NCBI RefSeq assembly: GCF_000003605.2
Contig: NW_003134348.1
Location: 44,352 to 79,691, forward strand
Length of the DNA stretch: 35,340 bases
DNA from: Saccoglossus kowalevskii
Taxonomy: Eukaryota > Hemichordata > Enteropneusta > Harrimaniidae
Reading direction: 5' to 3'
Part shown: piece after piece, positions 7,968-35,340 of the stretch
How positions within the stretch are numbered: the stretch's first letter is position 1
Layout of the letters: every line of letters starts with the position of its first letter
Program-made: the position numbers and the translations under genes
The notes under the pieces: generated by a model
Databases searched by the model: none
Told to the model about the DNA's origin: nothing
What the model saw: only the letters and a program-made list of their open reading frames with translations

Positions 7968-9294
7968 TTAAAAATGGAGAGTATCATTAATGGGTCCGGG
8001 GGTTCCTTGCCTCGCTTTGAAGATGTGGCTTTGTCTGTTAAAAATGTCCTTCGCTTTCTCGTAAATTTTCAAATCGTAAAACAGTGCTTCTGTTACTGCT
8101 GGGTCATCACGAAGTTGTTGTCGAAAGGATGCAATTACGTCGTTTCTCTTAATACCACGCGTCTCCGCCAAATACTGATGGTAATTGACGATGTTTCCCT
8201 GGCAACGGGAAAATGGCAGACGAAACGCATCCTCCAATAGCTGCAGAAAAGTGTTGTATTCCTCATTGATGCCGATGACGGCAAACCAGTTTTCCAAATT
8301 ATCTAAAACGTATTGCAAAATATTCAGTTTATCTATTTTACTTAACATGGCTTCCAGAACCAATTCGTTTCTATACCAACATGGTATTTTATTAGGTGTT
8401 AGGGACATCCCTTTGCGCATGCGCAGCTTGTCAATAATGTCGTCGTATTTCTGTGTACAAACTTCGAAATTATAAAACAATTGTCGAAAGAAAAAACTTC
8501 CCTGGAATATCGCCCATTGGTTCAGCGTCACATTGTTGGCGTCAATAATTTGGCAGTGAAGTTCATTACGCTTTTTACAGTACTCGTATGACGATATGAT
8601 GCGGTCAAGTGGATGACGTAACACGGTGACGTAGGTGCAAGGGTTTTCCGCAAAGTCACATATTTTAAAAGTATGGCCCCCCGCGAAGAACTTCTGCAAT
8701 GGACGTTTCCCGCTATTCGCCATGCCTGTATAGTAGTCACCTGCGTTCATGTCGCACACTACAGACATTCCGGGGTAATGTTGCTCCGCGCCAATATTTT
8801 CCATGCATACCTTCAGAGTACTTCCGCCTGATTTCTGGTTGTGTACGAAAACCATGGTTGCATTTTGATACGACGTACTTGGACTACGAGCAGAAATTTC
8901 ACGTTTTGTGAAAAAGTTTGGTAAATAGTGCGAACGGACGATCCAAGGGAAATGTTTCTCTATCTTCTCAGTGAAGAACATATTGGGAGCAGGGTTGTGT
9001 GTCTGTGTATGATTTGGTTTCTGAAGTTTACCGTACCCTTGGTCGGAATATGTGGCAATTTTCTTTAATTTCTCGTAACCTCGTTCCAGGCTTTCAGAGT
9101 TTGACTTGTCGATGGTCTTTTCTGTGTTTCCAGAAACTTTAGAGTGTTGGCTATACTTTGGCAGTGGTTTTCTTTCTGTTGGTATGTTCTGCTGGTTTTG
9201 TTTATCTATGTTGTTGTTCATTGGTTTATTCTGGTCACGTGTCACTTCTGTTTCATCATTCCATCTTGCAGGAAGTCTGGCAGCGAAGAGATGT
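7968..9294 (-). CDS. Carbohydrate sulfotransferase (Sulfotransfer_2-like), main and last coding exon; 5' exon not identified
   Basis: The exon encodes a PAPS-dependent sulfotransferase resembling the Golgi glycan enzymes of the heparan 2-O/uronyl 2-O group. Numbering from the in-frame GTG at 9245 (425 residues): a polar Asn/Gln/Lys-rich stem (1-90); the 5'-phosphosulfate loop FVHNQKSGGSTLK (133-145); the 3'-phosphate motif VTVLRHPLDRIISSYEYC (206-223); and N-glycosylation sequons at 78, 128 and 238. Several Cys fit lumenal disulfides. The GTG is not a believable start. The frame is open further upstream, to an acceptor (CTATTTTTTTAG) whose exon would begin at 9294, and stops lie beyond it. 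So this is an internal-to-terminal exon, and the transmembrane anchor expected of the family must come from an upstream exon. The stop is TAA at 7970-7968. The acceptor substrate cannot be told from sequence. Confidence 0.87.
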
Positions 9295-21264: not shown

Positions 21265-24200
21265 CTGAATAAATATAACATAATACAAACAATAAGTATG
21301 ATTATTACAATTGTTTTCTGAGGCGACGCTGTCGTCGAGACTGCGCGTATGTATAAAGAGAAGGGGGCTCTCGAAAACACGAATGTTTACATAGCGAACA
21401 TTTTTTAGATAGTTGACAAAAGGCAGTTCTCATTTACATGAACGCTGAGCAGAAAATTGAAAACACCAGAGTATAAGTCGTACTTTGTCATAGTTCAGGG
21501 ATTTTTGTGACGATAACATACTACAGGCTACGGCCATGAACTTTGATTGTGTTTGAATGAAGTGCGCGATTCATATATGGGAGGTTTTTATACCTATTCA
21601 TTTGTATGTCCGTTCAGGTTTACGGTAATTGTTTCCTAGTGAATTGTATGTCTTGTATTATACATATAACTCTACATGTCCCCAACTGGTTACACATCAT
21701 GGCACCGTACTTTCAGTGGTACAAATTCGCTTTGAATGTGAATTTCACAATTATACCCCCACTTGTCATTAATGTTCAGAATTGATCACAATTGATATGT
21801 TATATTGGAAACTATTGATATTCCAATGAGCAAAAACGTCACAGAATGTACCAAGATGTGTGACTTTTAGGAATCAAGCAAAAGGCATATTGGGTTGTCC
21901 GTGACGAATTTGGGAAAATAATGAAAATTCACTTTGGATACCAGCTGTCAAATAATGTGAATATTAAAGCGCGGTGGTCGTCGCGCAGCGCGTGTTCGAA
22001 TTTCATGTAAATAAACAATGTATTTTACACGCGTTGTATACATCGCTACGAGTCCCATATCGAACAGGACGCGGCACGACGACTACCACCCTTTAAGTAA
22101 AAGACATGTTAACCATGAGGCTATTGTACTTAATTTAAAAAAAATATATTACTAGTCTACATAAAACTAGGATTGAAAAGTTCAGAAGTATGACATGCGA
22201 ATGTGAAACACTTCAAAGTTTTGACTTGTAATTACCTGATTCCATTTTAAATTTGATGATATTCTCCTTATTGTACATGATATCACTGAATGCCTTTAAT
22301 GCTTCATACACTGACTCAACCTGCTCCACCGGAATATACATCATGCTAGACAGAGAAGTTCGGCTATATGCGATTTCTTCTATGTTACCCTTACGTCCCA
22401 AGCTATTGAGAGCAAATCGAAAAATAAAACATAACGAATAATGCTTGATCAATCAACTTGTTATGTTATGTGTTATTTATTTGAAATCTTGGGCGGGCTG
22501 AAGAAAATTGTTATTTTGTGAATATTTTATTCGCAAATGTCTGACAAAAAAAATGTATTTACATTTTCCCAATTCGGTTACAATATTCAGTAATCATTTT
22601 CTCTTCACTCTCAACCAATTTGTCCTTCGCCAGAATTTGATATTCTGACCAGCAAAAAAACGTAGTTTTGAAAACACAACCGACTTCTTATGAATTTAAT
22701 AGGGTTCAAAATGTTAAGCAAGTAAAACGTTTGGGGAAAAACGATTTCCATTGGTAAGATCATAGTGAATTCTGGGTAATTTATAGTGATATGGCATGGA
22801 TCTTGTTGTATTGAAACACGTGACGGACGCGTGAGATTTAATGTACCCAATACGCATGCGCATATTTGCGATTTCCTTACTTTTGAGTAGAAGTGGATGT
22901 TAAAGTTGTTGTTTTTTCTAAAAACGTGCTCCATTACAGTGTATGTCCTGGTAGCCGAAGATCGAGTGTAATATATCGCTTATAAGTTCGTTATGTTGTA
23001 CCAGATATACCGGTCAGTGGTGTGCCAGATATACCGGTCAGTGGTGTACCAGATATATCAGTCAGTGGTGTGCCAGATATATCAGTCAGTGGTGAACCAT
23101 ATATACAGGTGATGAGTTAATACGTACCAAATAGTTGGAGATTGTCTATTAAAGTGATACGAATAATAATCTATCCCGATATCGGAGAAATTCAACCAGG
23201 TAGTTGTCAGTATCTCGAATGCTTTGGGATTTTCTTTTTTCAGTTGAATGGCTGCTTTGAAACCATCAGTGAACTCACTGTCTCCACCTTCACCATCATA
23301 TTGCTGAATACAGTGTAACATTTGTACCTATGCAAAACATATTGTTATACATGTATTATTATACAACGGATATACATCACGATATGGTGAATAGATATCA
23401 CAAAGCAGCTAATGGGCATCACAATATGGTAGATAGACATCATAATACAGTGAATGGGCATCATAGTACAGTGGGTGGCCATCATGATATGCTAATTGGA
23501 CATCATAATACAGTAAATAGACATCACAATGCAGCGAACGAGCAACACAATATCGTGATTAGACATCATAATAAAGTGAATGGGCATAACACTCAGTGAA
23601 TGAACATTACAGTACAGTGTATGTGCAGCACAACACAATGAGAGGACATCACAATACAGTGAATGAAAATCAAAATATAGCGGATATACATCAAGATATG
23701 GTGAATGGGCATCACGATATGGTGAATGGGCATCACGATATGGTGAATAGACACCATAACATGTCATTAAACATTACACTAATATAAAATGCTACCTAAC
23801 ACAATCATGCTTTTCCATATATTAAAAGGCGGTAGTCGTCGCGCCACGCATGCGTGAGATATATGGGTCTCGTATAAACAACGAGTACAAACTGGGACGT
23901 TACCAAGCTTTAATTAGGTATTTTTTAGGTGATTGGAAGGTATTGAAGGAGTCACCGGCTATAATTAGTGTAAGTCGCTTCCAGGTCAAACTTCATACTT
24001 GTGATTTATCTTAGAAGAACGCATTGGATTGTGGGAAAATCAATGTTTATCAACACAAAGGTCGCACTTGCGCAGCGCGACGAATGCCGCCCTTCAACAA
24101 CTGAAATGGATCACGTGTATGCAGTATGCTGTAAGCATACTCACCCCGGGTGCGTGATTATAGTTTGACAGATCCGTGTGCAGACTAAGTCCGGCAGCAG

Positions 24201-25548
24201 TATAGGCTGTATTACTAGGATTCATTTTACTTTTGACTGAGAAGCATACTCTAGAAAATATAGGATACTATTATTTATGTTTGTCCACCATTCAGTTCAG
24301 TCTTACGCGTCCACTTTTCATTCAACAGTAACCACGACGTTCCTGGAGTAAACTATCGCCGACTCTCACAAGGCTGTTTGTCTGTCGGTCTGTCGGTCTG
24401 TCCTTCTGAGTCTGTCTGTTTAATGTTGTACAAATATTATATGGCAAATTCTACCATTTTTAGTTTGGGTAATGTTTGAGAAATAAATTTCATTATCATT
24501 CCATTCAATATCTACCCACTGCTCTTCTCAAATCCAAACCAGGTCAGTACTATTTAAAGGGCGGCAGCCGTCGTGCCGCGTCCTGTTCGATATGGGACTC
24601 ATAGCGACGTATACAACGCGTGTAAAATACATTGTTTATTTACATGAAATTTGAACACGCGCTGCGCGACGACCACCGCGCTTTAACTTTTTCTTTTTAA
24701 GTTACACTGTTGTAATGCATTTCGCGTATTTAATAGTACAAATGTGGTATTCTATTTCATTTACAAAAATTATGAGAAAAGTACGCTACGCTGGCATAGG
24801 AATGCACAAAATGGATCTATGGACAGCTATAAAACAAAACACCGCACCACTACCTGCTCCTATTTCATTGGGTTATTCTAGAACCTGTGGATTTTTGAAT
24901 ATTGAACAAAAATAGCATGAACAAATACCTCGAACTAAAATGCACGTACACCTGATAGTGCTATTGTGAAATTCTTATGGACGATATTGTCAAATATATT
25001 GTGAAAAAATCTAAATGTCGGGCTTACCCATAATTTGTAGGTTTGAGGAAAGAGACTCGTTTTGCAACACGTTTTATTTGTCCTGTTTCCTGAGGTACAT
25101 TCTTAATCAATGCAAGACCTGATGCATTCAACGAATCTAGCCACTTGTATAATTCAGCCTCGTTATTCAGGATACCTTCAAAATCGTACGTGGGTATAGT
25201 ATTGACCATCTCAGAACCCCATATATGCAGTTGAGGTTCAGCCACCTCGTCTGGCTTTGACGAATCAAACTGGTGTGTACGTAGCCAGTCAACGCTGTAG
25301 TCGCCGATATGTCCTTTAGACCATTTAATACTTAGATGGCTTCCATCAGGTGTCAGCGTCACCGATTCGGGAACCGCTCGGAAATCCAGCTGGCTGAACG
25401 GTACCAGCCTTTGATTTGCTGAATGCACATAACACTGGGTACACCGGCAATTATCGAGTAACCAAATATAGGGGTATTTACTCTGTAACCCGTCTGTGAA
25501 TATCGCCTTTATTTGCCTGTCTTCATCAACACACGTGGCGGATTGCAT
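21110..25548 (-). CDS. BBOX1: Gamma-butyrobetaine dioxygenase, complete five-exon gene
   Basis: Encodes the Fe(II)/2-oxoglutarate enzyme that hydroxylates gamma-butyrobetaine to L-carnitine, normally in the cytosol. The exons join to 382 codons plus TAG; human BBOX1 is 387. All intron phases close (2, 0, 2, 1). The N-terminal zinc-binding domain shows Cys34, Cys36, Cys39 (DNCRCTQC) and His80. The double-stranded beta-helix carries the iron ligands His198 and Asp200 (LHTD) and His344 (VLHGR), and Arg357 in SRHLEGGYIDWD for 2-oxoglutarate. The GGDSEFTDGF and SRHLEG motifs favour BBOX over trimethyllysine dioxygenase, and there is no mitochondrial presequence. ATG 25548 is chosen because it has a purine at -3 and is the first ATG after an in-frame TAG near 25,600. 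Some substrate-pocket positions differ from the human enzyme, so a paralogue with altered preference is possible. Confidence 0.93.
21964..22096 (+). mobile_element. TTAA-type MITE, short subfamily (133 bp), intact, in BBOX1 intron 4
   Basis: Bounded by TTAA at 21964-21967 and 22093-22096. The inverted ends are AGCGCGGTGGTCGTCGCGC and GCACGACGACTACCACCCT. The inner sequence is itself partly inverted: GCGCGTGTTCGA on the left against TCGAACAGGACGCG on the right. It is the same length as the copy at 24,554. Confidence 0.9.
22236..22402 (-). CDS. BBOX1: BBOX1 exon 4 (residues 276-331)
   Basis: 167 nt. The acceptor is TTTGCTCTCAATAG and the donor TCAG|GTAATT, phase 1. It encodes LGRKGNIEEIAYSRTSLSS and MYIPVEQVESVYEALKAFSD. 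Confidence 0.92.
22998..23110. repeat. 24-bp minisatellite, about 5 units, BBOX1 intron 3
   Basis: The words CCAGAT/CCATAT recur at 23001, 23025, 23049, 23073 and 23097, an exact 24-bp period. The unit is roughly ACCAGATATACCGGTCAGTG plus four bases. The last unit ends less than 20 bp from the exon 3 donor. Confidence 0.92.
23128..23327 (-). CDS. BBOX1: BBOX1 exon 3 (residues 210-275)
   Basis: 200 nt. The acceptor is TTTTGCATAG and the donor TTG|GTACGT, phase 2. It encodes VQMLHCIQQYDGEGGDSEF and on to FSDIGIDYYSYHFNRQSPTI. Minisatellites lie close to both splice sites. Confidence 0.93.
23365..23770. repeat. 21-bp minisatellite, BBOX1 intron 2
   Basis: About 19 units of a 21-bp word, roughly CATCATAATACAGTGAATGG plus one base, with substitutions and a few indels. 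Because 21 is a multiple of three, both strands read as open repeats (HHNTVNG on the plus strand), which produces false open frames. It starts about 40 bp from the exon 3 acceptor. Confidence 0.92.
23822..24097 (+). mobile_element. TTAA-type MITE, long subfamily (276 bp), BBOX1 intron 2
   Basis: TTAA at 23822-23825, then AAGGCGGTAGTCGTCGCGCC and the same interior as the 13,523 copy (ACGCATGCGTGAGATATATG, CCAAGCTTTAATTAGG, CGCATTGGATTGTGGGAAAA). The right end is GAATGCCGCCCT with a mutated TCAA. It is somewhat shorter than the 13,523 copy through internal deletions. Confidence 0.87.
24145..24250 (-). CDS. BBOX1: BBOX1 exon 2 (residues 174-209)
   Basis: 106 nt, too short to show as a long open frame. 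The acceptor is TATTTTCTAG and the donor CCCGGG|GTGAGT. It encodes SVKSKMNPSNTAYTAAG then LSLHTDLSNYNHAPG, which includes the iron ligands His198 and Asp200. Without this exon the enzyme would be dead. Confidence 0.92.
24554..24686 (-). mobile_element. TTAA-type MITE, short subfamily (133 bp), intact, BBOX1 intron 1
   Basis: TTAA at 24554-24557 and 24683-24686. It begins AGGGCGGCAGCCGTCGTGCC and ends GCGACGACCACCGCGCT. Relative to the 21,964 copy it is inverted and very similar throughout. Confidence 0.9.
25028..25548 (-). CDS. BBOX1: BBOX1 exon 1 (codons 1-173 plus 2 nt)
   Basis: 521 nt. It holds the start codon, the zinc site CRCTQC, and the linker up to FLKPTNY. The donor is TATGG|GTAAGC, leaving phase 2. 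The 5' UTR and promoter are not resolved; a separate 5' non-coding exon is possible. Confidence 0.92.
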
Positions 25549-27955
25549 GGCGAATAGCCCGGCACCCACGGTGTTATTCCAAAACCTCGTATACTATGCA
25601 TGTACTATATTATAATTTACGAACACCTGAATGTATGACCAAGGAAACGGGCGATACTACATGAATACTACGTGACAATGTAGGGGTGTCCGGTTTAGAA
25701 TATAAACAGCAGAGATAGGGAATCGTCTTAAATTACGTCAACTGCAATTCAATAACTGTCTGTGTAATATAAAACATATATCAAGAATACATTTGAATGG
25801 TATACATATGTTTCGAGTGAAGTGCCAGAACTCTCCCCTTCAAAACACTTCTACAAAACGCACGTCATTCGAATGTACTACGCATGCTCAGACGATATAT
25901 CACCTGAATTTCTCACGACTGTCTATTTAGAAACGATGACACGGGAAAAATGGCTGTTGTACCGTGACTGGTATCCCGCCGAGCTGTGCTCTATTCTGAG
26001 TATAGAACGCGAAGTAACGCGAAGCCATCATCTGTGCAACCAGGTCGTCAGTCAATAATAATGATAATGCCTATTTTTTTTGGGGGGGGGCTTCAGTCAA
26101 ACCCCCTAAATCATGATTGTTTAAATAATTGACTCGGTGCGGTTGTCATCAGTCCCAGCCGAAATGTCTAAATGTCAATCGTTACGTAACGCCGGCTTTG
26201 AATGACTGCAGCTGAGCTGAAACAACTCAAAAGCCAGTGAACAACATTATTATAAATGGGCAAGCTTTTATTCGGTGGTGGTGAAATGAAGATCGGATAG
26301 GCGGTAAGACGCGTAGCGATAATTATACACAGACAACTAATATATTTATACAACATTTACAATAATATAACAGGAGTCTCTCTCTCTGTTTTGACTTCAT
26401 TGTGTTCTTTGTGACAGTATATTGCATACTGTCCCACCTCGATGGCACCACGAAGTAGTTAGAATTGCATACAGTGCCTTGTTTATTTTGTTTTTTCAGT
26501 AAAATAAAATGTCATGGGAGTGTATAAATGGCGAAAGCGAACGCGAACGCGAAAGTCGGGTTTTGCACGGCAACCTAAACTAACTTGTACGACTATGTAA
26601 GGGAGAATATTGAGTTGCATTTTCGAAAATGTTACCACCAGCTGCAGACTGTCCCCATTGGTATTTGCATGGTATTTGTGCCACCCCTCACAAACCAACG
26701 TGTTACAAGGGGACAGATACAATGCCTAAATATATTGGCAAGTTCACCTGAAAAATTTTACAAACTGAATTTAGCTATTCCGTTTTCAACCCTTATGCTG
26801 AATCAGAGAGGGACTGTGGCTGAATGAACAGTTCACAGGTATACAAAGTAATTTAGTCATATATTATTTGATTTAAGGATATGCATAGTAGAATATGTCC
26901 AATGCATCTGTTTAAGTGTGATAGTACTTTCCTCGTTTGGTTCATTAGTTTTAATTTCTTCAAGTTAGTGACGGCGTATACACTATTCCTTTTCTTGTAG
27001 CTTAAATTTGCAAGTCAGTGGTGGATCTCGGTTTGTGCGTGTCTGTAGGTGAGAGTTGGCCCAGGAACCCTCTCCCTAAAATGGCATAGATAACGTGTAT
27101 TAACAACGTAACACAACATAATGTCAGTAACAGAACTGACAGATACCATAAAATTCGCTCTTTGTTTTCTTTTATAATTAAATAACTGACACGTTTCACA
27201 TAAAATATAATATTGTTTTCGAAGAAAGTTAGTCGCTCTTTCATATTTTTGCCAACGCCTTACCATAATTCCAAAGATATTATTATAATAAATCAAGAAA
27301 ATTAAACAGATTGACCACATTTATGAATGCTGAGCCGGGGTATACGGTTTTAAGAATCTCCTGTTCCGTGCCGTGATCCATGCATGACAAATTCTAAATA
27401 CAACACGTCTCCAGCTATACCGGTTTAAAAATCTGGGAACGTTAGTACTTTCATCCCTGCCTATTTTTATACTACACTAAATACCAACCGACACCCTCAT
27501 ACAGGCTAGGCGTACAGTTGATTAGTTCATGGGATTCCTGTGGTTATGTTTCCCTCTGGTGATTTCGATCAATATTAAATAGCAAACAAATTTTACTACT
27601 TTCAAGGAAATAAAACACCGAACGATGTCAACATTTTCGACCCGTTAATTGTATATCGCATACACGCAACGACGAAAGGGTATGCCAAGCTATGCTTAAT
27701 AATATATTAGAGTGACTATTCAGTACGCCTTGGTCTGCCTTAGAGAGACTAGTTTCCATCGTGGATACATATACCATTTGTGTTGCATAAAATCGTGCGA
27801 CTCGAGATACTTTTCTTAAGCATTCATTGTGAATTGAGCACAACAAATCTGTGATGCACTGGGAGATTGAGTTAGGAAGTACCTAAATTCCCACTAATGG
27901 GGGTCATGATGATATGCTAGGCAATATCATCTTTCTGAGAACACAATTCCAACTA
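25549..27955. other. Non-coding 5' flank of BBOX1 and intergenic DNA
   Basis: No supported gene. BBOX1 transcription should start somewhere in the left part of this stretch, but no TATA box or other promoter element can be fixed. Simple features: T8G10 near 26,073-26,090, a short GCGAAC repeat near 26,532-26,553, and a CT run near 26,378. The open frames at 25,822 and 26,585 resemble nothing known. Confidence 0.5.
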
Positions 27956-28100: not shown

Positions 28101-29280
28101 TTGATTTGATTTATGTACATGTATTCAGTTAGGGATGGACCATTTAAAACTCAAAACTAATACACATGATAATGGTATGCCCTGACAAATACAAGACATG
28201 CTGCGAAGATGAGAAATTGGTGATACAGCAGTTGTATTGTTTTTAACCACATGGGCGGTGTCTGTAACAATGTCTTTAATGAGTCTGCTAAAAACTGTTC
28301 ACACTCATCCTTAACTATATTTAGAACAGTAAACTTAAATTTGGAAATTCCTACAGTTTAAACTGTGACAAGTGGGTCACTAAAAATAGTTAAAACACTG
28401 GGCAGGAGGGCAGTTAAATTGCAGAATATGGAGAACACTCTCTAGCAGTCAGGTACCAACATAGAACAAAATCGGTTCAGAAGCGTTTTTTTTTGTGTCT
28501 TGGAAGACATAAATGGATGCTAATTGGTCAAATATATATATACTAGCTTCGAACAAAATTGGTAAAGATTTGTGAGGGAAAGAATAAATAATCACCAAAT
28601 ATATTTACCAGTAACCAAGCATTACCAGCCATGTACCATTAATGGTTTAAACCAACCCTACAGTTATGCCACACATCCTAAAGCAAACAAATACAGAGCA
28701 CCCTCAGACCAGTGTATTAATCATTGGCCACAATTCTAAGTATAATAAAAATGTTTAATTTCTCACAGGATAGTCAGTAGATTTAAACTATACTAAAGAA
28801 ATGAAAACAAATAAACAAAAAACTTCATATAATTAATATTTATTATCATAAATATTTAATTATCTATTAGAATGAACATAAGTCAAAAGTTATCAATTGT
28901 CATGAAAAAAATCATTTCAATAATTTTTAGATAAAATGAGTAAAATAAATAGATGCTTGGACATAAAAAAACACATACCATATTACTATATTGCATTTTA
29001 TCTTAATCAATACTTCTTTAAAACATAGCAAGTATTCCAATGTTTTGTAAACAAACAATATACATCCAAGCCAAGCCAAGGTACAACTGTTTTTTTTTAT
29101 ATATTTACAAAAAATAGCATTTAAAAACAGATTGATTAGTACTTGAACTGCCAATACTAAAAATATACCTACATTACTGTATATATAGTAACCATAACAA
29201 TACATTTAGAAATATGACACTATTAGTTAAATAAACAATCTTCACATACTTCGGGCAGTTTTTAATATTATGTTTCTTTA
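28101..29280. other. AT-rich non-coding DNA downstream of VPS8
   Basis: No gene supported. A hydrophobic 92-codon frame on the minus strand (28,927-29,205) is explained by AT-rich composition. Confidence 0.5.
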
Positions 29281-29720
29281 AATCTTTATTTTTCACACAG
29301 CTCTAAAATTGATGTCATCTTTAAATTCAATGAACATGGGTACATGTACATAAAATACTACCAACAATTAGGTGTAGCATTTTGCCAATTCATTTGTCTA
29401 AAGGTTTATTGTTAATTCTCCATGGCTGCAGGTCTCTATCACAATAAATGACAAGTTTAATTTCCGTTTTCTACATTGCAAGCCAATCACAGAGCACTTC
29501 ATCACTGTGTGTACTGGAAGCAAGCCAATCAGAGAAGACCTTGCTTATTTACTTGGTTACTATGAGATGACTTGCAAGATTGTACATGATTGGTTCTCTA
29601 GCCCTAACACATTACCAGATGTTCAATCAGGAATCATATACGATAAATACAAATAGAGTAGTAATAATGCCAAGAAAAGAGCCATATTTCCGGTCATTAA
29701 GTGCATCAGTTACACTACTT
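29281..29720 (-). other. VPS8: Probable VPS8 3' UTR region
   Basis: Follows the VPS8 stop on the minus strand. Candidate AATAAA signals read on the minus strand lie near 29,406 and 29,285. A further AATAAA overlaps the stop codon itself (GAATAAAAG, 29,719-29,725). Which is used cannot be told. A GCCAATCA-type word occurs twice, near 29,480 and 29,523. Confidence 0.4.
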
Positions 29721-29861
29721 TTATTCCAGACTTGTATCTAATGGCGGAGCTGATAAATGGAGCTTGAAACTTTCTTTGTGTAAAATACTATCTGCAGAAA
29801 CAACTCCTTTACGAGAAGGGTGACTACGATTAGCTCGCGACAGCTCACTCAAGATTGCCAA
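29721..29861 (-). CDS. VPS8: VPS8 terminal coding exon D
   Basis: 141 nt. The acceptor is ACTCTTCTTTGCAG. It encodes LAILSELSRANRSHPSRKG, then SADSILHKESFKLHLSAPP and LDTSLE, with TAA at 29723-29721. The LAILSELS start continues exon C exactly as in other VPS8 proteins, which proves that the array between them is intronic. Confidence 0.92.
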   Translation of the reverse strand: MAILSELSRANRSHPSRKGVVSADSILHKESFKLHLSAPPLDTSLE

Positions 29862-32800
29862 CTGCAAAGAAGAGTAACAGAATAATTATAGCAGGCAATT
29901 ATAGTTATATATATTTTGTAACTGGCATAAAAATAAAATGATTAGTTCAAGTGGTTATCACTTTATACCTCAAGTGAAACTGGTAAGCTATTATTATATA
30001 CATTGAAGTAAAAATGAGAGAAAAAATGGCACAAAGCATTTTGTAACAATCCTTTCTCATCTGAGATGAAGTCGTATATCCCAGAAAGTTCTCTAATGGA
30101 CTATCAAAGCTGAGATAAAGTCATTACTTACCCTGGAAGGTCCTCTAGTCGACTGTCTTAGCTGAGATAAAGTCAATACTCACCCCGGAAGCTCCTCAAG
30201 TGGACTGTCTTAGCTGAGAGAATGACATTACTTACCCTAGCCTGTCCTCTAGTAGACTGTCTTAGCTGAAATATAGACATTACCTACCCTGGAAAGTCCT
30301 CTAGTAGACTGTCTTAGCTGAGAAAAAGACATTACTTGCCCTAGAAAGTCCTCTAGTAGACTGTCTTAGTTGAGATAAAGCCATTACTTATCCTAGAAGG
30401 TCCTGTAGTAGACTGTCTTAGCTGAGATAAAGCCATTATTTACCTTAGAAGGTTCTCTAGTGAACTGTCTTAGCTGAGATAAAGACATTACCCTCTCTAG
30501 AAGAGATAAAGTCAATACTCACCCCGGAAGCTCCTCAAGTGGACTGTCTTAGCTGAGAGAATGACATTACTTACCCTAGCCTGTCCTCTAGTAGACTGTC
30601 TTAGCTGAGATATAGACATTACCTACCTTGGAAAGTTCTCTAGTAGACTGTCTTAGCTGAGATAAAGACATTATCCTCTCTAGAAGGTTCTCTAGTAGAC
30701 TGTCTTACCTGAGGTAAAGACATTACATACCCTGGAAGGTCTCTAGTGGACTGTCCTATCTGAAATAAAACCATTACTTACCCTAGAAGGTCCTCTAGTC
30801 GACTGTCTTAGCTGAGATAAAGCCATTATTTACCCTAGAAGGTCCTCTGGTGGACTGTCTTGCCTGAGATAATGCCATTACCTACCCTGGAAGGTCCACT
30901 AGTGGACTGTCTTAGCTGAGATAAAGTCATTACTTACCCTGGAAGGTCCTCTAGTAGCCTGTCTTAGCTGAGATAAAGCCATTACTTACCCTGGAAGGTC
31001 CTCTAGTGGACTGTCTTACCTGAGATAATGCCATTACTTACCCTGGAAAGTTCTCTAGTTGACTGTCTTAGCTGAGATAATGCCATTACCTACCCTGGAA
31101 GGTCCACTAGTGGACTGTCTTAGCTGAGATAATGCCATTACCTACCCTGGAAAGTCCATTAGTGGACTGTCTTAGCTGAGATAATACCATTACTTACCCT
31201 GGAAGGTCCTCTAGTGGACTGTTTTACCTGAGATAATTGCCAGTACCTACCCTGGAATGTCCACTAGTGGACTGTCTTAGCTGAGATAATGCCATTACCT
31301 ACCCTGGAAGGTCCACTAGTGGACTTTCTTAGGTGAGATAATGCCATTACTTACCCTAAACGGTCCTCTAGTAGACTATCCTATCTGAGACAAGCCATAC
31401 ATGGCACAGTCCCTGTTAGTTATTGAATTTAAGATATATAGTTTTGTTTATAGTAATATAGCTGGAACATAAACATGTCAGGAATATGATTATGATGATT
31501 GAGAGATATTACTCTGGAACAGCATTAATTAAAACAAAATCAGCCATTTTGAATACATGTATAATGAATATATAAAATTTGAACATAATTAGTCAAAGCA
31601 TGTCAGAGATATGGCACTAGAGCTGCATTCATTAATACAAAATGGCCACCAGCCGGCCATTTTAAATTCGATCTGAAAAATAAAATGACGTGCATCAGGA
31701 ACCCATAATGTCTAATGTATGTACCAAGTTTGAACAAATTCCATTCATAAATGCTTGATTTGATGATTTTTTAGCACAAAAATGACCACCATTCGGCCAT
31801 TTTGAATAGGATCGTCAAACCAATATATCTGTATATCTATGACATGATTTATAATGAATATTTAAAATTTGAACATAATCAGTCTAAGCAAGTCAGAGAT
31901 ATGGCACTAGAACCACATTTATTAAAACAAAATGGCCGCCAGTTGGCCATTTTAAATCTTATCTAAAAAACAAAATGATGTGCATCAAGGTCCTATAATG
32001 TCTAACATATATACCAATTTTGAACAAAATCCATTTGTAAACAGCCGAAAAATTCTTGATTTTGATGATTTTTAGCACAAAAAAGGCCGCCATTCGGCCA
32101 TCTTGAATCAGATCGTGAAACAAATTGATGTGCATATGTATAATATCATGTATGATGTATATGTGAAATTTGATTGTGATTGGTCCAGGCATTTCTAAGA
32201 TACAGGTCCGAACACACACACTCATGCACGAACACACGGAGGTCAAAACACAAGTCCCCGTTTTCGGACTGCGTCCAAACAGGGACCAATAAAGCCACTA
32301 CTTACCCCAGCAGGTCCTGTAGTAGGCTGTCTTAGCTGAGATAAAACCATTACTTATCCTAGAAGGTCCTCTAGTGGACTGTCTTACCTGAGATAAAGCC
32401 ATTACTTACCCTAGATGGTCCTCTAGTAGCCCGTCTTAGCTGAAATAAAACCATTACTTACCCTAAATGGTCCTCTAGTAGCCTGTCATAGCTTAGATAA
32501 AACCATTACTTACCCTAGATGGTCCTCTAGTAGCCTGTCATAGCTTAGATAAAGACATTACTTCCCCTAGAAGGTCCTCTAGTAGCCTGTCTTAGCTGAA
32601 ATAAAACCATTACTTACCCTAGAAGGTCCCCTAGTAGACTGTCCTATCTGAGATAAAGACATTACTTCCCCTAGAAGGTCCTCTAGTAGCCTGTCATAGC
32701 TGAAATAAAACCATTACTTACCCTAGAAGGTCCCCTAGTAGACTGTCCTATCTGAGATAAAGACATTACTTCCCCTAGAAGGTCCTCTAGTAGCCTGTCT

Positions 32801-34396
32801 TAGCTGAAATAAAACCATTACTTACCCTAGAAGGTCCCCTAGTAGACTGTCCTATCTGAGATAAAGACATTACTTACCCTAGAAGCTCCTCTAGTGGACT
32901 GTCTTAACTGAGATAAAGACATTACTTACCCTAGAAGGTCCCCTAGTAGACTGTCCTATCTGAGATAAAGACATTACTTACCCTAGATGGTCCTCTAGTA
33001 GCCTGTCGTAGCTTAGATAAAGCCATTTCTTGTGCTGCATCTAATTGTGTATCCTACAATAAAAGAAATTGAGAAGATTATCAAGATATTTTGACAAGCA
33101 AAAGTGCTAAAAACACATGTGTCGAAGCCATCGTTTTGAACATTTCTACCAAGAGATAATATACATATACAGAATATCTTTAGAAAACATGCCCTCTACA
33201 GTTGTATCTCACCTGTACTTTCTTTTTTCCATTTTGTACCACGTTTATATTAGGGGGAGATTTAGATGTTGGAGACAACTGGGTAAGGCTCTTCTTTCGA
33301 TCTTTCACACCTCTTCTTTTGTTAGTATTACACTGATAACAAAACCAGTGTTGCTGACCATCAATCATAGTACAACTTCCAACTGACAGAAGACACAGTG
33401 TATGATAGGCATGACCACAACTAAAAAAAAAAAGAACAAGTATTTAGTAGAGAATGCATTTTTAATGCAATTTTTTTTCAATTCAACTGAAAATGTAAAT
33501 AAATCTTGTGTCGACCAGTCACAGGTACCATAGTAGTTGTCGCATCAGACTCATGATCGGTAGACCCAAGTTCAAATCCTACCTTAGGCTGAACATCAAA
33601 GGGTCGACCCCAACCCTGGGTGAGTGTGCCACAGACTCAATGGGAAGGCCAATTCCACTGGCCGTGATTCATTCACTAACGAATGCGACTTTGGGGGAAC
33701 CTTGGTTAAGGTCCGCAGGTGCTTGTGTTCGACCGGGCCTGGTTGACGCCAGGATAGCGCATTACAAATTGCCATTTGACAGAGAGATGGCCACACAGCC
33801 CTGTCATGTAGTCCCAAACAGGAAATGACTTCTGTGGCAAAATGCACTATGTGTTGTCACTAGCACTTGCAATTTGCACATACGCAAAAAAAGTCAGGAG
33901 AGACAACAGTGACACTCAATGTCCGGAACTGTCGCCTGGCACAAAAAATATTTAAAAAAAAAAAAAAATTATGTATGTCACATGATCCAGGAGATTGCAA
34001 AAAATAATATATGTATGTCACATGATCCAGGAGATTGTGATAGCCAAGGCTCTATTGTTAAACAGCAAGTGGTCCCATTTATAACATACACAGAATAAAT
34101 TATCAATTCCTCTAAATTTTCTAATCAGGACTCACTGTGGTGACCCATAATCCCCAAAATGCACCAATCGCAATCAAAAGTGAATGTCATGTGACAGAGC
34201 TTAACCAATCAAAGTCATTAATTGTTACTTACCTGAATATACACACAGATTGCTGATCCTGGTCAGTATGTGGTTTACTGCATACATGGCAATTGTCGTC
34301 TTTGGCTGCCAATCCTTTATTGACTGCCATCGTTAAATTTACCAAAGATCCATGTAAATCATGATTCAATAAGTTATTGGTAGTCTTTAATAAAGT
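29721..34396 (-). CDS. VPS8: VPS8, C-terminal four exons (RING finger and tail); 5' part outside the window or not found
   Basis: VPS8 is the CORVET-specific subunit that, with the class C core, tethers Rab5-positive early endosomes. The joined exons give 194 residues and a stop. TLLKTTNNLLNHDLHGSLVN leads into a RING-H2-like finger: CHVC, then CGHAYHTLC, then CYQC. A basic Ser/Lys/Pro-rich linker follows, then LDAAQEMALSKLRQATRGPSR and LAILSELSRANRS, and a tail ending DTSLE. Order and motifs match the C terminus of animal VPS8, including the conserved R-G-x-S-R-L-A-x-L-x-E-L-S segment, which is split here by an intron. All phases agree (0, 2, 0, 0). The upstream WD40 and helical parts lie beyond the right edge; a possible exon ending near 34,702 was tested and fails by frame. 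The last intron (about 3.1 kb) is filled with an array derived from the preceding exon. Confidence 0.93.
30061..31397 (-). repeat. 52-bp exon/donor minisatellite, block 1 (about 25 units), VPS8 last intron
   Basis: Each unit, read on the minus strand, carries a copy of the 3' part of VPS8 exon C (TTTATCTCAGCTAAGACAG then TCTACTAGAGGACC, TTCTAGG) followed by the donor GTAAGTAAT. Plus-strand landmarks are ATTACTTACCCT and GACTGTCTTAGCTGAGATAA at about 52-bp spacing. About four of five units keep the donor GT (as GTAAGT, GTAGGT or GTGAGT). One unit near 30,490-30,505 is shortened, at the start of a duplicated multi-unit segment. Confidence 0.95.
31398..32286. mobile_element. Insertion of unknown type splitting the array, with internal repeats and a terminal hairpin
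   Basis: About 0.9 kb unrelated to the 52-bp units. Two good copies and two degenerate ones of a roughly 290-bp monomer are visible, with landmarks AATTTGAACATAATNAGTC, GAGATATGGCACTAGA, AAAATGGCCGCCAG and TTCGGCCATTTTGAAT. The left end has CAGTCCCTGTTAG (31,407) and the right end AAACAGGGAC (32,267-32,284), an inverted pair. The right end also folds on itself (GTCCCCGTTT...GGAC-TGC-GTCC...AAACAGGGAC). AAGCCA occurs in the array sequence on both sides and may be part of a target duplication. No coding capacity. Confidence 0.7.
32287..32981 (-). repeat. 52-bp exon/donor minisatellite, block 2 (about 13 units), adjoining exon C
   Basis: Same unit as block 1 and continuous with exon C at 32,982. 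A 104-bp dimer (one unit with CCCCTAGTAGACTGTCCTATC, one with CTCTAGTAGCCTGTC) is repeated about three times between 32,597 and 32,860. In the dimer, one unit has TTCCCCT instead of TTACCCT on the plus strand, which destroys its donor GT. Confidence 0.95.
32982..33053 (-). CDS. VPS8: VPS8 exon C (24 codons), source of the intronic array
   Basis: 72 nt and too short for an open-frame search. The acceptor is TTTCTTTTATTGTAG and the donor TCTAGG|GTAAGTAAT, phase 0. It encodes DTQLDAAQEMALSKLRQATRGPSR (given here as DTQLDAAQEM plus ALSKLRQATRGPSR). It joins in frame to LAILSELS in the next exon. The last 40 or so bases plus the donor are the template of the 52-bp repeats that follow. Confidence 0.92.
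33213..33420 (-). CDS. VPS8: VPS8 exon B (second half of the RING)
   Basis: 208 nt. A very T-rich acceptor ends TTTTTTTTAG; the donor is CAG|GTGAGA, phase 0. It encodes CGHAYHTLCLLSVGSC, the last Cys pair in WFCYQCNTNK, then the basic linker KRRGVKDRKKSLTQLSPTS. Confidence 0.92.
33505..33971 (+). mobile_element. tRNA-derived SINE, nearly full length, in a VPS8 intron
   Basis: A tRNA-like head holds an A-box-like CATAGTAGTTGTCGCATCAG and a B-box AGTTCAAATCC (near 33,571). A body of about 370 bp contains CTTTGGGGGAACCTTGGTTA and GTCCGCAGGTGCTTGTG. The tail is GTGACACTCAATGTCCGG and AACTGTCGCCTGGCAC followed by an A-rich run. Related copies at 27,960 and 6,705 confirm a dispersed family. The plus-strand 106-codon frame inside is a by-product of the SINE. 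Confidence 0.85.
33968..34050. repeat. Two-copy tandem duplication after the SINE
   Basis: TATGTATGTCACATGATCC followed by AGGAGATTG occurs at about 33,971 and again at about 34,011, separated by an A-rich spacer. A target duplication of the SINE is unlikely because both copies are on the same side. Confidence 0.85.
34233..34396 (-). CDS. VPS8: VPS8 exon A (first VPS8 exon in the window)
   Basis: 164 nt. The acceptor is TTTTCGTTACAG and the donor TTCAG|GTAAGT, phase 2. It encodes TLLKTTNNLLNHDLHGSLVN and AAKDDNCHVCSKPHTDQDQQ, giving the first Cys pair of the RING. Confidence 0.92.
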
Positions 34397-35090
34397 CTGT
34401 AACGAAAACAATGTAGAAAAACATTTTCTTGATACAAGAATTGTTTAATATGTAAAATGATTTATTACTTAAAATATTAATGATTTTTTCCATGAAAACA
34501 TGCTTTATTTTGTCATTGATTCACTTCAACATTGTGCCTCTCCCACAGCAATGAATTATTAATTTATGTTAAGTTTTTACTGTCATGTAATACTTAAATG
34601 CCATGTATCACTGCGAATACATTCATTGTTATTCACAGCCAAATGTTAAACTGTTCATAAACAAATTTACCAGTAAATAAATCACATCACATTTTGACTT
34701 ACCTAATGACTGACTTTAGTTCTGATCATTTTCACAGTCAGTGGTAACCCATGACAACAAACTAGTACAATCTACTCCCACATTTAATACATTCACCATG
34801 ACAACATACCATTTTATAATTATGGAAACTAATATATATCATTTGCTAAATGTAACCCACTAATATGAGTCACTTTCCACTAAATATATTCACTAAACCC
34901 ACTATTGATCATTACCTTACTCATATCCTACCCACATAGAAAATGTAAAACACCGTAATATTGTTATCACCATCAGCATTAATCTCACTCAACACGCCCT
35001 TGATCTCCTCTCCTCTCCACCCAAGTGAACACCACTAATTTCCCTCCCTTCTAGGCAAATTTAACAGCACAGCCCACCTACTCACCCACA
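34397..35090. other. VPS8: Non-coding, presumably VPS8 intron
   Basis: AT-rich and without a supportable exon. A donor-like CATTAG|GTAAGTC on the minus strand near 34,702 was considered, but the frame required by the next exon (phase 0) would end in TAG. Confidence 0.5.
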
Positions 35091-35139
35091 ACACCAACTC
35101 ACCCAATTAAGGCCCTTAATGTCTTCCCACATTCACTAC

Positions 35140-35340
35140 ACAACACAACCCCACCCACTCACTCCACCCACTCACTCAACCCTATACCCCATCCTTCCTA
35201 CACTCACTCCACCCACCCACTCACTCAACCCTATACCCCATCCTTCCTACACTCACTCCACAACCCACCCACCCACTCACCCTATACCCCATCCTTCCTA
35301 CACTCACTCCACCCACTCACTCCACCCTATACCCCATCCT
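35140..35340. repeat. C/A-rich minisatellite running off the window end
   Basis: Units of about 50 bp built from CCCTATACCCCATCCTTCC and TACACTCACTCCACCCA, at least four copies at about 35,180, 35,230, 35,279 and 35,326. The preceding 150 bp is a degenerate CACCCACT-rich tract. One strand is strongly C-rich. Confidence 0.88.

Follow-up and report, generated by a model that had tools for sequence, protein, structure and literature searches.

A tandemly repeated exon-intron junction in the VPS8 gene of Saccoglossus kowalevskii, resembling the mirages of lancelets

The stretch of Saccoglossus kowalevskii DNA analyzed here (35,340 nt, hereafter the window) carries on its minus strand, between 29.7 and 34.4 kb, four exons that form a single open frame. 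Exon A (34233..34396), delimited by its open frame, its splice sites and its Pfam match, encodes the start of a RING-like domain and ends at the donor CAG|GTAAGTAA. Exon B (33213..33420; donor CAG|GTGAGATA), recognized by Pfam and by its open frame, encodes the remaining part of this domain and a linker, exon C (32982..33053) has 72 nt and phase 0-0 and codes for DTQLDAAQEMALSKLRQATRGPSR, and exon D (29721..29861), the last coding exon, follows the acceptor CTTCTTTGCAG and terminates in TAA. The A-B, B-C and C-D introns measure 812, 159 and 3,120 nt, all of them with GT-AG borders, and exon C joins exon D in frame, in agreement with the original prediction for this locus. The 194 residues of the joined exons matched the Pfam family zf_RING_Vps8 (PF23412; E 8e-14, 51.7 bits, cut-off 27.3) across exons A and B, so the gene name VPS8 holds and the sequence identifies the gene as animal VPS8, which codes for a CORVET subunit. 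The same 194-residue piece retrieved 25 sequences from the PDB, every one of them matching over the zinc-finger region. For the 93-residue tail that comes after the RING (exons C and D), the sequence search of the PDB found no relative and Pfam no covering family; presumably this tail resembles those of other VPS8 proteins, and we take the R-G-x-S-R of exon C to be a conserved VPS8 segment. Searches by protein for VPS8 relatives gave 88 pattern matches in the genome_contigs collection and 4 in viral_contigs, and none was confirmed in either. Within the A-B intron, positions 33508-33950 look by eye like a tRNA-derived short interspersed element, next to which two 40-bp tandem copies (TATGTATGTCACATGATCCAGGAGATTGC plus poly-A) lie at 33960-34037; Rfam at the gathering threshold gave no match in 28500-35340.

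The C-D intron contains a tandem array whose 52-nt unit consists of the 45 nt at the end of exon C followed by GTAAGTA, so the proposed identity of the unit with the exon end plus its donor was borne out. When this 52-nt sequence was slid along the intron, 38 intronic copies were found (39 with the copy in the exon), the number that had been estimated, and the remaining 27 nt of exon C and the exon C acceptor are absent from the units. The unit consensus differs from the exon C end at 4 of 52 positions, two of these differences being synonymous in the exon frame. Individual units differ from exon C at 2 to 13 positions per 52 (mean 8.1; 35 of the 38 units), whereas 2000 shuffled exons gave a mean of 38.7 and a lowest value of 28.5, and the units thus align to exon C far better than to unrelated sequence. 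Three units (30774, 30723 and 30124), affected by deletion or decay, were omitted from this and the other 35-unit column comparisons. Furthermore, a 22-nt junction probe with up to three mismatches found 33 matches in the window, all of them in exon C and the array (0.00 expected), and no match was obtained for the junction 22-mer in viral_contigs.

Placement and content of the array agree with the interval originally given for it (30061..33053), but the array is not continuous, as a different element occupies about 31400-32289. On the exon C side of this element, the proximal block (32299..32974, minus strand) comprises 13 intronic 52-nt units, several of which alternate in a two-unit pattern. 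The distal block (30073..31399, minus strand) comprises 25 intronic units, has its register shifted by one base at 31242 and again at 30723, includes a 27-nt unit remnant (30489-30515, minus strand) and is bordered at its distal edge by a degenerate partial copy, noted by eye within ACTTCATCTCAGATGAGAAAGG... (30040..30072, minus strand). The inserted element, of about 0.9 kb (31400..32289, ends approximate, no strand assigned), breaks a unit, and the broken unit stands at its edge. Within it are direct repeats that are 80% identical and spaced by about 0.3 kb; it also shows short terminal similarity (GGTCCCTGTT / AGTCCCTGTT) and recurring palindromes (AAAATGGCC...GGCCATTTT), and no second copy was found elsewhere in the window. 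This element is probably unrelated to the array units and was most likely inserted later.

Several features of the array bear on its growth. Neighboring units are more alike, with means of 7.0 to 7.6 differences at a spacing of 1 to 4 units, than distant ones, with means of 9.0 to 9.7 at a spacing of 11 to 15. In addition, alternate units from 32974 to 32610 are identical or nearly identical, a block is repeated within about 30160-30620 and TRF reported periods of 131, 183 and 235, all of which points to block-wise growth. The mean pairwise divergence of 16.2% among the 35 units and the exon indicates that the array is not brand new. At the edges the picture is mixed: the distal edge unit is decayed (17/52 differences, a value surpassed only by the 20 of unit 30774, a deletion unit compared without gaps), and units in the array interior have exactly the sequence of the first intronic one. 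Hairpin-driven instability was also considered and was rejected, as the DNA folds of single units did not surpass those of shuffled sequences (z 0.53, 0.60 and -0.37), with RNA folds of two units giving z values of 1.34 and 0.47 against shuffles.

Most units have a usable-looking donor, as had been anticipated. GT is kept in 30 of the 38 intronic copies and lost in 8, and 27 copies carry a strong donor, defined as GTAAGT, GTAGGT or GTGAGT (GTAAGT in 18/38). Pairing with the 5' end of U1 is at least as strong as for the authentic donor (-11.6 kcal/mol) in 21 of the 38 copies, while GT sites of such strength occur at 0.12 per kb on the minus strand outside the stretch formed by exon C and the array. 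Similarly, there are 27 strong donor motifs within these 3.1 kb compared with 10 on the rest of the window's minus strand. When the 39 sites are joined directly to exon D, the authentic donor is the only one that yields the normal protein, and all 38 decoy sites (a count that takes in the 8 sites without GT) lead to a stop before the last junction, inside the array, located more than 50 nt upstream of that junction in 37 cases and closer in one. Reading through from exon C, the first stop is the TAG at 32945, exactly where it had been predicted.

The high density of donors could be read as a maintained regulatory device, in which U1 snRNPs held in the intron would tune VPS8 output, either because frameshifted transcripts decay or because premature polyadenylation is suppressed. 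This is the least probable of the explanations we considered, because a concentration of 27/38 strong donors in so short an interval follows from descent, GT has been lost in 8 of the 38 donors and GT changes were as frequent as elsewhere (4 against 3.6 expected). The latter figure comes from a parsimony analysis, with 94 changes in total, in which the 35 units and the exon were placed on a FastTree tree; since the tree ignores recombination between units, its p values are rough, and the donor, GT, TCAG, tract plus AG and core comparisons are five uncorrected, partly overlapping tests. Over the donor positions -1 to +6, 8 changes were counted against 12.7 expected, a depletion that is not significant (p 0.10), and selection maintaining the decoy donors was rejected on this basis. 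The decoys would thus look good by descent from a good donor and not by upkeep.

In 34 of the 38 units a second splice-like signal, a CAG that resembles an acceptor, precedes the donor position by about 30 nt. Exon C reads TCTAAG at this place; the first A of its AAG is replaced by C in 33 of the 35 units compared, and CAG stands at the position of AAG in 31 of them. Together with its pyrimidine tract the acceptor-like motif, TTATYTCAG, occurs 27 times in the C-D intron and is absent from the rest of the window's minus strand, and 30 nt separate it from the donor, a stretch read in the frame that exon C passed on to the units. Of the 35 units tested, 21 possess CAG and a strong donor with an uninterrupted 30-nt frame between them, which gives them the look of in-frame mini-exons of 10 codons. 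The first such core (32930..32959, minus strand; IGQSTRGPSR) lies between the acceptor-like TTTATCTCAG and the donor GTAAGTAA; no more than 22 nt separate it from the authentic donor, and the other cores are further away. A set of 23 of 35 units lies at least 45 nt away from the authentic donor and contains both CAG and a strong donor; three of these 23 have a stop. The three joins through acceptor-like sites that were written out are in frame to the normal stop, and single inclusion of the core of unit 32922 is predicted to add LRQSTRGASR before the normal C terminus. The claim that the first donor alone gives a normal protein is therefore correct for direct joins, but routes through the acceptor-like sites keep the frame and lengthen the protein by 10 residues. 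In units 32402, 31242, 31034 and 30723 the CAG is followed by G, so that the sequence becomes CAG|GTAA, as in a recursive splice site, and TCAGGTAAG, an acceptor immediately followed by a donor, is present in three places among these units.

Taken as functional, these cores would make the intron an in-frame mini-exon array, from which alternative splicing could insert a 10-residue peptide of the LRQSTRGPSR type, in a single copy or in several, between GPSR and LAIL. Apart from the number of complete cores, the acceptor tracts speak in favor of this possibility, as their pyrimidines and AG have changed less than expected (9 changes against 16.3, p 0.026 uncorrected), with TCAG alone changing 3 times against 7.2 (p 0.06). 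However, the units owe both their frame and its openness to exon C, so these properties do not constitute independent evidence, and a stop interrupts the inherited frame in 6 of the 35 units, including the three mentioned above. Changes in the 30-nt core are about as numerous as expected (52 against 54.2), and in the inherited frame 17 were synonymous, 31 nonsynonymous and 4 to stop (null means 13.5, 35.3 and 3.2), an excess of synonymous changes that is not significant (p 0.17) and is about equaled in a wrong frame (offset 2, p 0.16; three frames tested). Coding constraint on the mini-exon frame was rejected accordingly. Moreover, only 22 nt separate neighboring cores, less than an animal intron requires, which would limit their use to one core at a time or to combinations that leave out intervening units, and the splicing machinery usually passes over 30-nt exons unless special factors assist. 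Overall, these tests give no convincing sign of constraint on the units and a faint hint of possible constraint on the acceptor tract, and we regard use of the cores as mini-exons as improbable. Slightly more improbable still is a full bank of dozens of mini-exons, each with a branch-like site, tract, AG and donor, that would place varying 10-residue, R/S-bearing repeats in the VPS8 C terminus; if it were true, the junction minisatellite would be a source of protein variants.

The origin of the array can be approached from the distances between exon C and the units. Exon C differs on average by 6.1 positions from the proximal block (13 units) and by 9.4 from the distal block (22 of its 25 units). 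The units nearest to it are 32558 (2 differences) and 32506 (3 differences), both of which share TCTAAG with the exon; their place in the array is ninth and tenth, not first, which indicates that position alone cannot show the order of events. In its mean distance to the other 35 sequences exon C is mid-range (rank 20 of 36), a value that by itself does not mark it as the ancestor. This rank would fit a reverse history, in which a dispersed or intronic satellite existed beforehand and one of its units gave rise to the end of exon C. We give such a capture as little probability as the use of mini-exons, since the exon C end continues the open frame on both sides, is closer to the proximal than to the distal block and has no copy of its unit elsewhere in the window. 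Thus, the original proposal that the exon came first, as an ancestral junction from which the array was copied, is supported, although not proven, by the open frame on both sides of exon C and by its proximity to the adjacent block. The exonic AAGAAATG and the AAGTAATG just beyond the donor are alike in 4 of 5 letters, a weak similarity with a chance probability of 0.045.

Junction repeats of this kind are already known, as the VPS8 array looks like the 'mirages' of lancelets, of which it would be a large and handy example. The excerpts of the original reports describe mirages as tandem duplications of exon-intron boundaries in Adh3 and in the globins BflGb6 and BflGb9, with units of 10-72 bp in Adh3 and 150-160 bp in the globins, splice signals in many but not all copies and a proposed role as a source of new introns (PMC3087553), add a mirage in TnC and similar repeats in PGBD5 (PMC3902484), and suggest that regular splicing is undisturbed (PMC3087553, PMC3902484). 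As far as these excerpts go, mirages and the VPS8 array share minisatellite-like tandem units that lie across an exon-intron boundary and contain a splice signal, and the duplicated boundary of BflGb9 is of the same kind, the 3' boundary of an exon (PMC3087553, PMC3902484). Two features that define mirages recur in VPS8, where the units span 45 nt of exon C and 7 nt of the donor and splice signals are intact in many copies (30/38 with GT, 27/38 strong). Mirages are further characterized by concerted turnover within the cluster that leaves out its edges, and by length polymorphism between haplotypes or somatic cells; in VPS8 turnover is seen inside the array, with the edges mixed as described above (distal unit decayed, first unit identical to interior ones). 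The VPS8 array differs from mirages in its mostly uniform 52-nt unit and in the acceptor-like site within most units, and its 38 intronic copies compare with the 6 and 3 units given for two BflGb6 haplotypes. Related cases appear in excerpts of other reports. In human genes within segmental duplications, internal tandem repeats at boundaries can alter splicing and form new introns (PMC2812944); those repeats differ from one recent paralog to another and are backed by transcripts, whereas the VPS8 array is known from DNA of a single locus. A duplication that carried splice signals over an intron-exon boundary created a new intron (PMC4974935), whereas in VPS8 an existing intron was enlarged. 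Additionally, intronic minisatellites lie near alternative splicing in C. elegans (PMC4039745), and one is described in an earthworm metallothionein gene, where the excerpt does not place it across a splice junction (PMC12783039). A search of the open-licence literature that did not use the name VPS8 met no VPS8 case of junction repeats.

In view of these data, the array is probably a minisatellite of the mirage type, generated by near-neutral expansion of the junction between VPS8 exon C and its intron. A 52-bp stretch across this junction would have been duplicated in tandem, the first duplication perhaps aided by the short similarity of AAGAAATG and AAGTAATG, and unequal exchange or slippage, involving both single units and blocks of several units, would then have raised the number of intronic copies to about 38 before the unrelated element entered the array. 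The copies would be near-neutral and the array a passive by-product. Normal VPS8 mRNA would arise mainly from exon C being defined by the acceptor that precedes it together with the closest donor, the first one, and use of a decoy would give frameshifted transcripts that could be removed by nonsense-mediated decay. The layout of the array, the identity of its unit, the donor counts and the consequences for translation are shown by the sequence, and from this arrangement we infer the order of these events, the use of the first donor in vivo and the decay of the other transcripts.

Whatever its origin, the C-D intron offers a natural multi-donor intron, in which one authentic 5' splice site is followed by 27 strong, near-identical ones, mostly at 52-nt spacing, and direct joining gives a normal protein only from the first. 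Models of donor choice make different predictions for such an intron: when many U1 are bound, some favor the donor nearest to the downstream acceptor, which would be at the far end of the array, and exon definition and first-come models predict the first donor. Since double occupancy by U1 tends to favor the donor closest to the acceptor, a strong use of the first donor in VPS8 would be informative. In addition, copies of an exon end that need a single base change to gain a CAG acceptor could serve as raw material for new exons. Binding of several U1 to alternative donors has been described, in the excerpt of the report, to affect the choice of donor and not the efficiency of splicing, unless the donors are too close (PMC5389562).

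Other features of the window lie outside VPS8. Two further minisatellites, at 22997-23110 (24 bp) and 23369-23759 (21/63 bp), have consensus sequences in which no strong donor motif is seen by eye. An open frame of 425 codons on the minus strand (7968-9245) gave no Pfam match at 1e-3 and, we assume, resembles a sulfotransferase. Another open frame on the minus strand (25024-25569) encodes a domain like the N-terminal one of gamma-butyrobetaine hydroxylase (Pfam PF06155, 1.7e-13).
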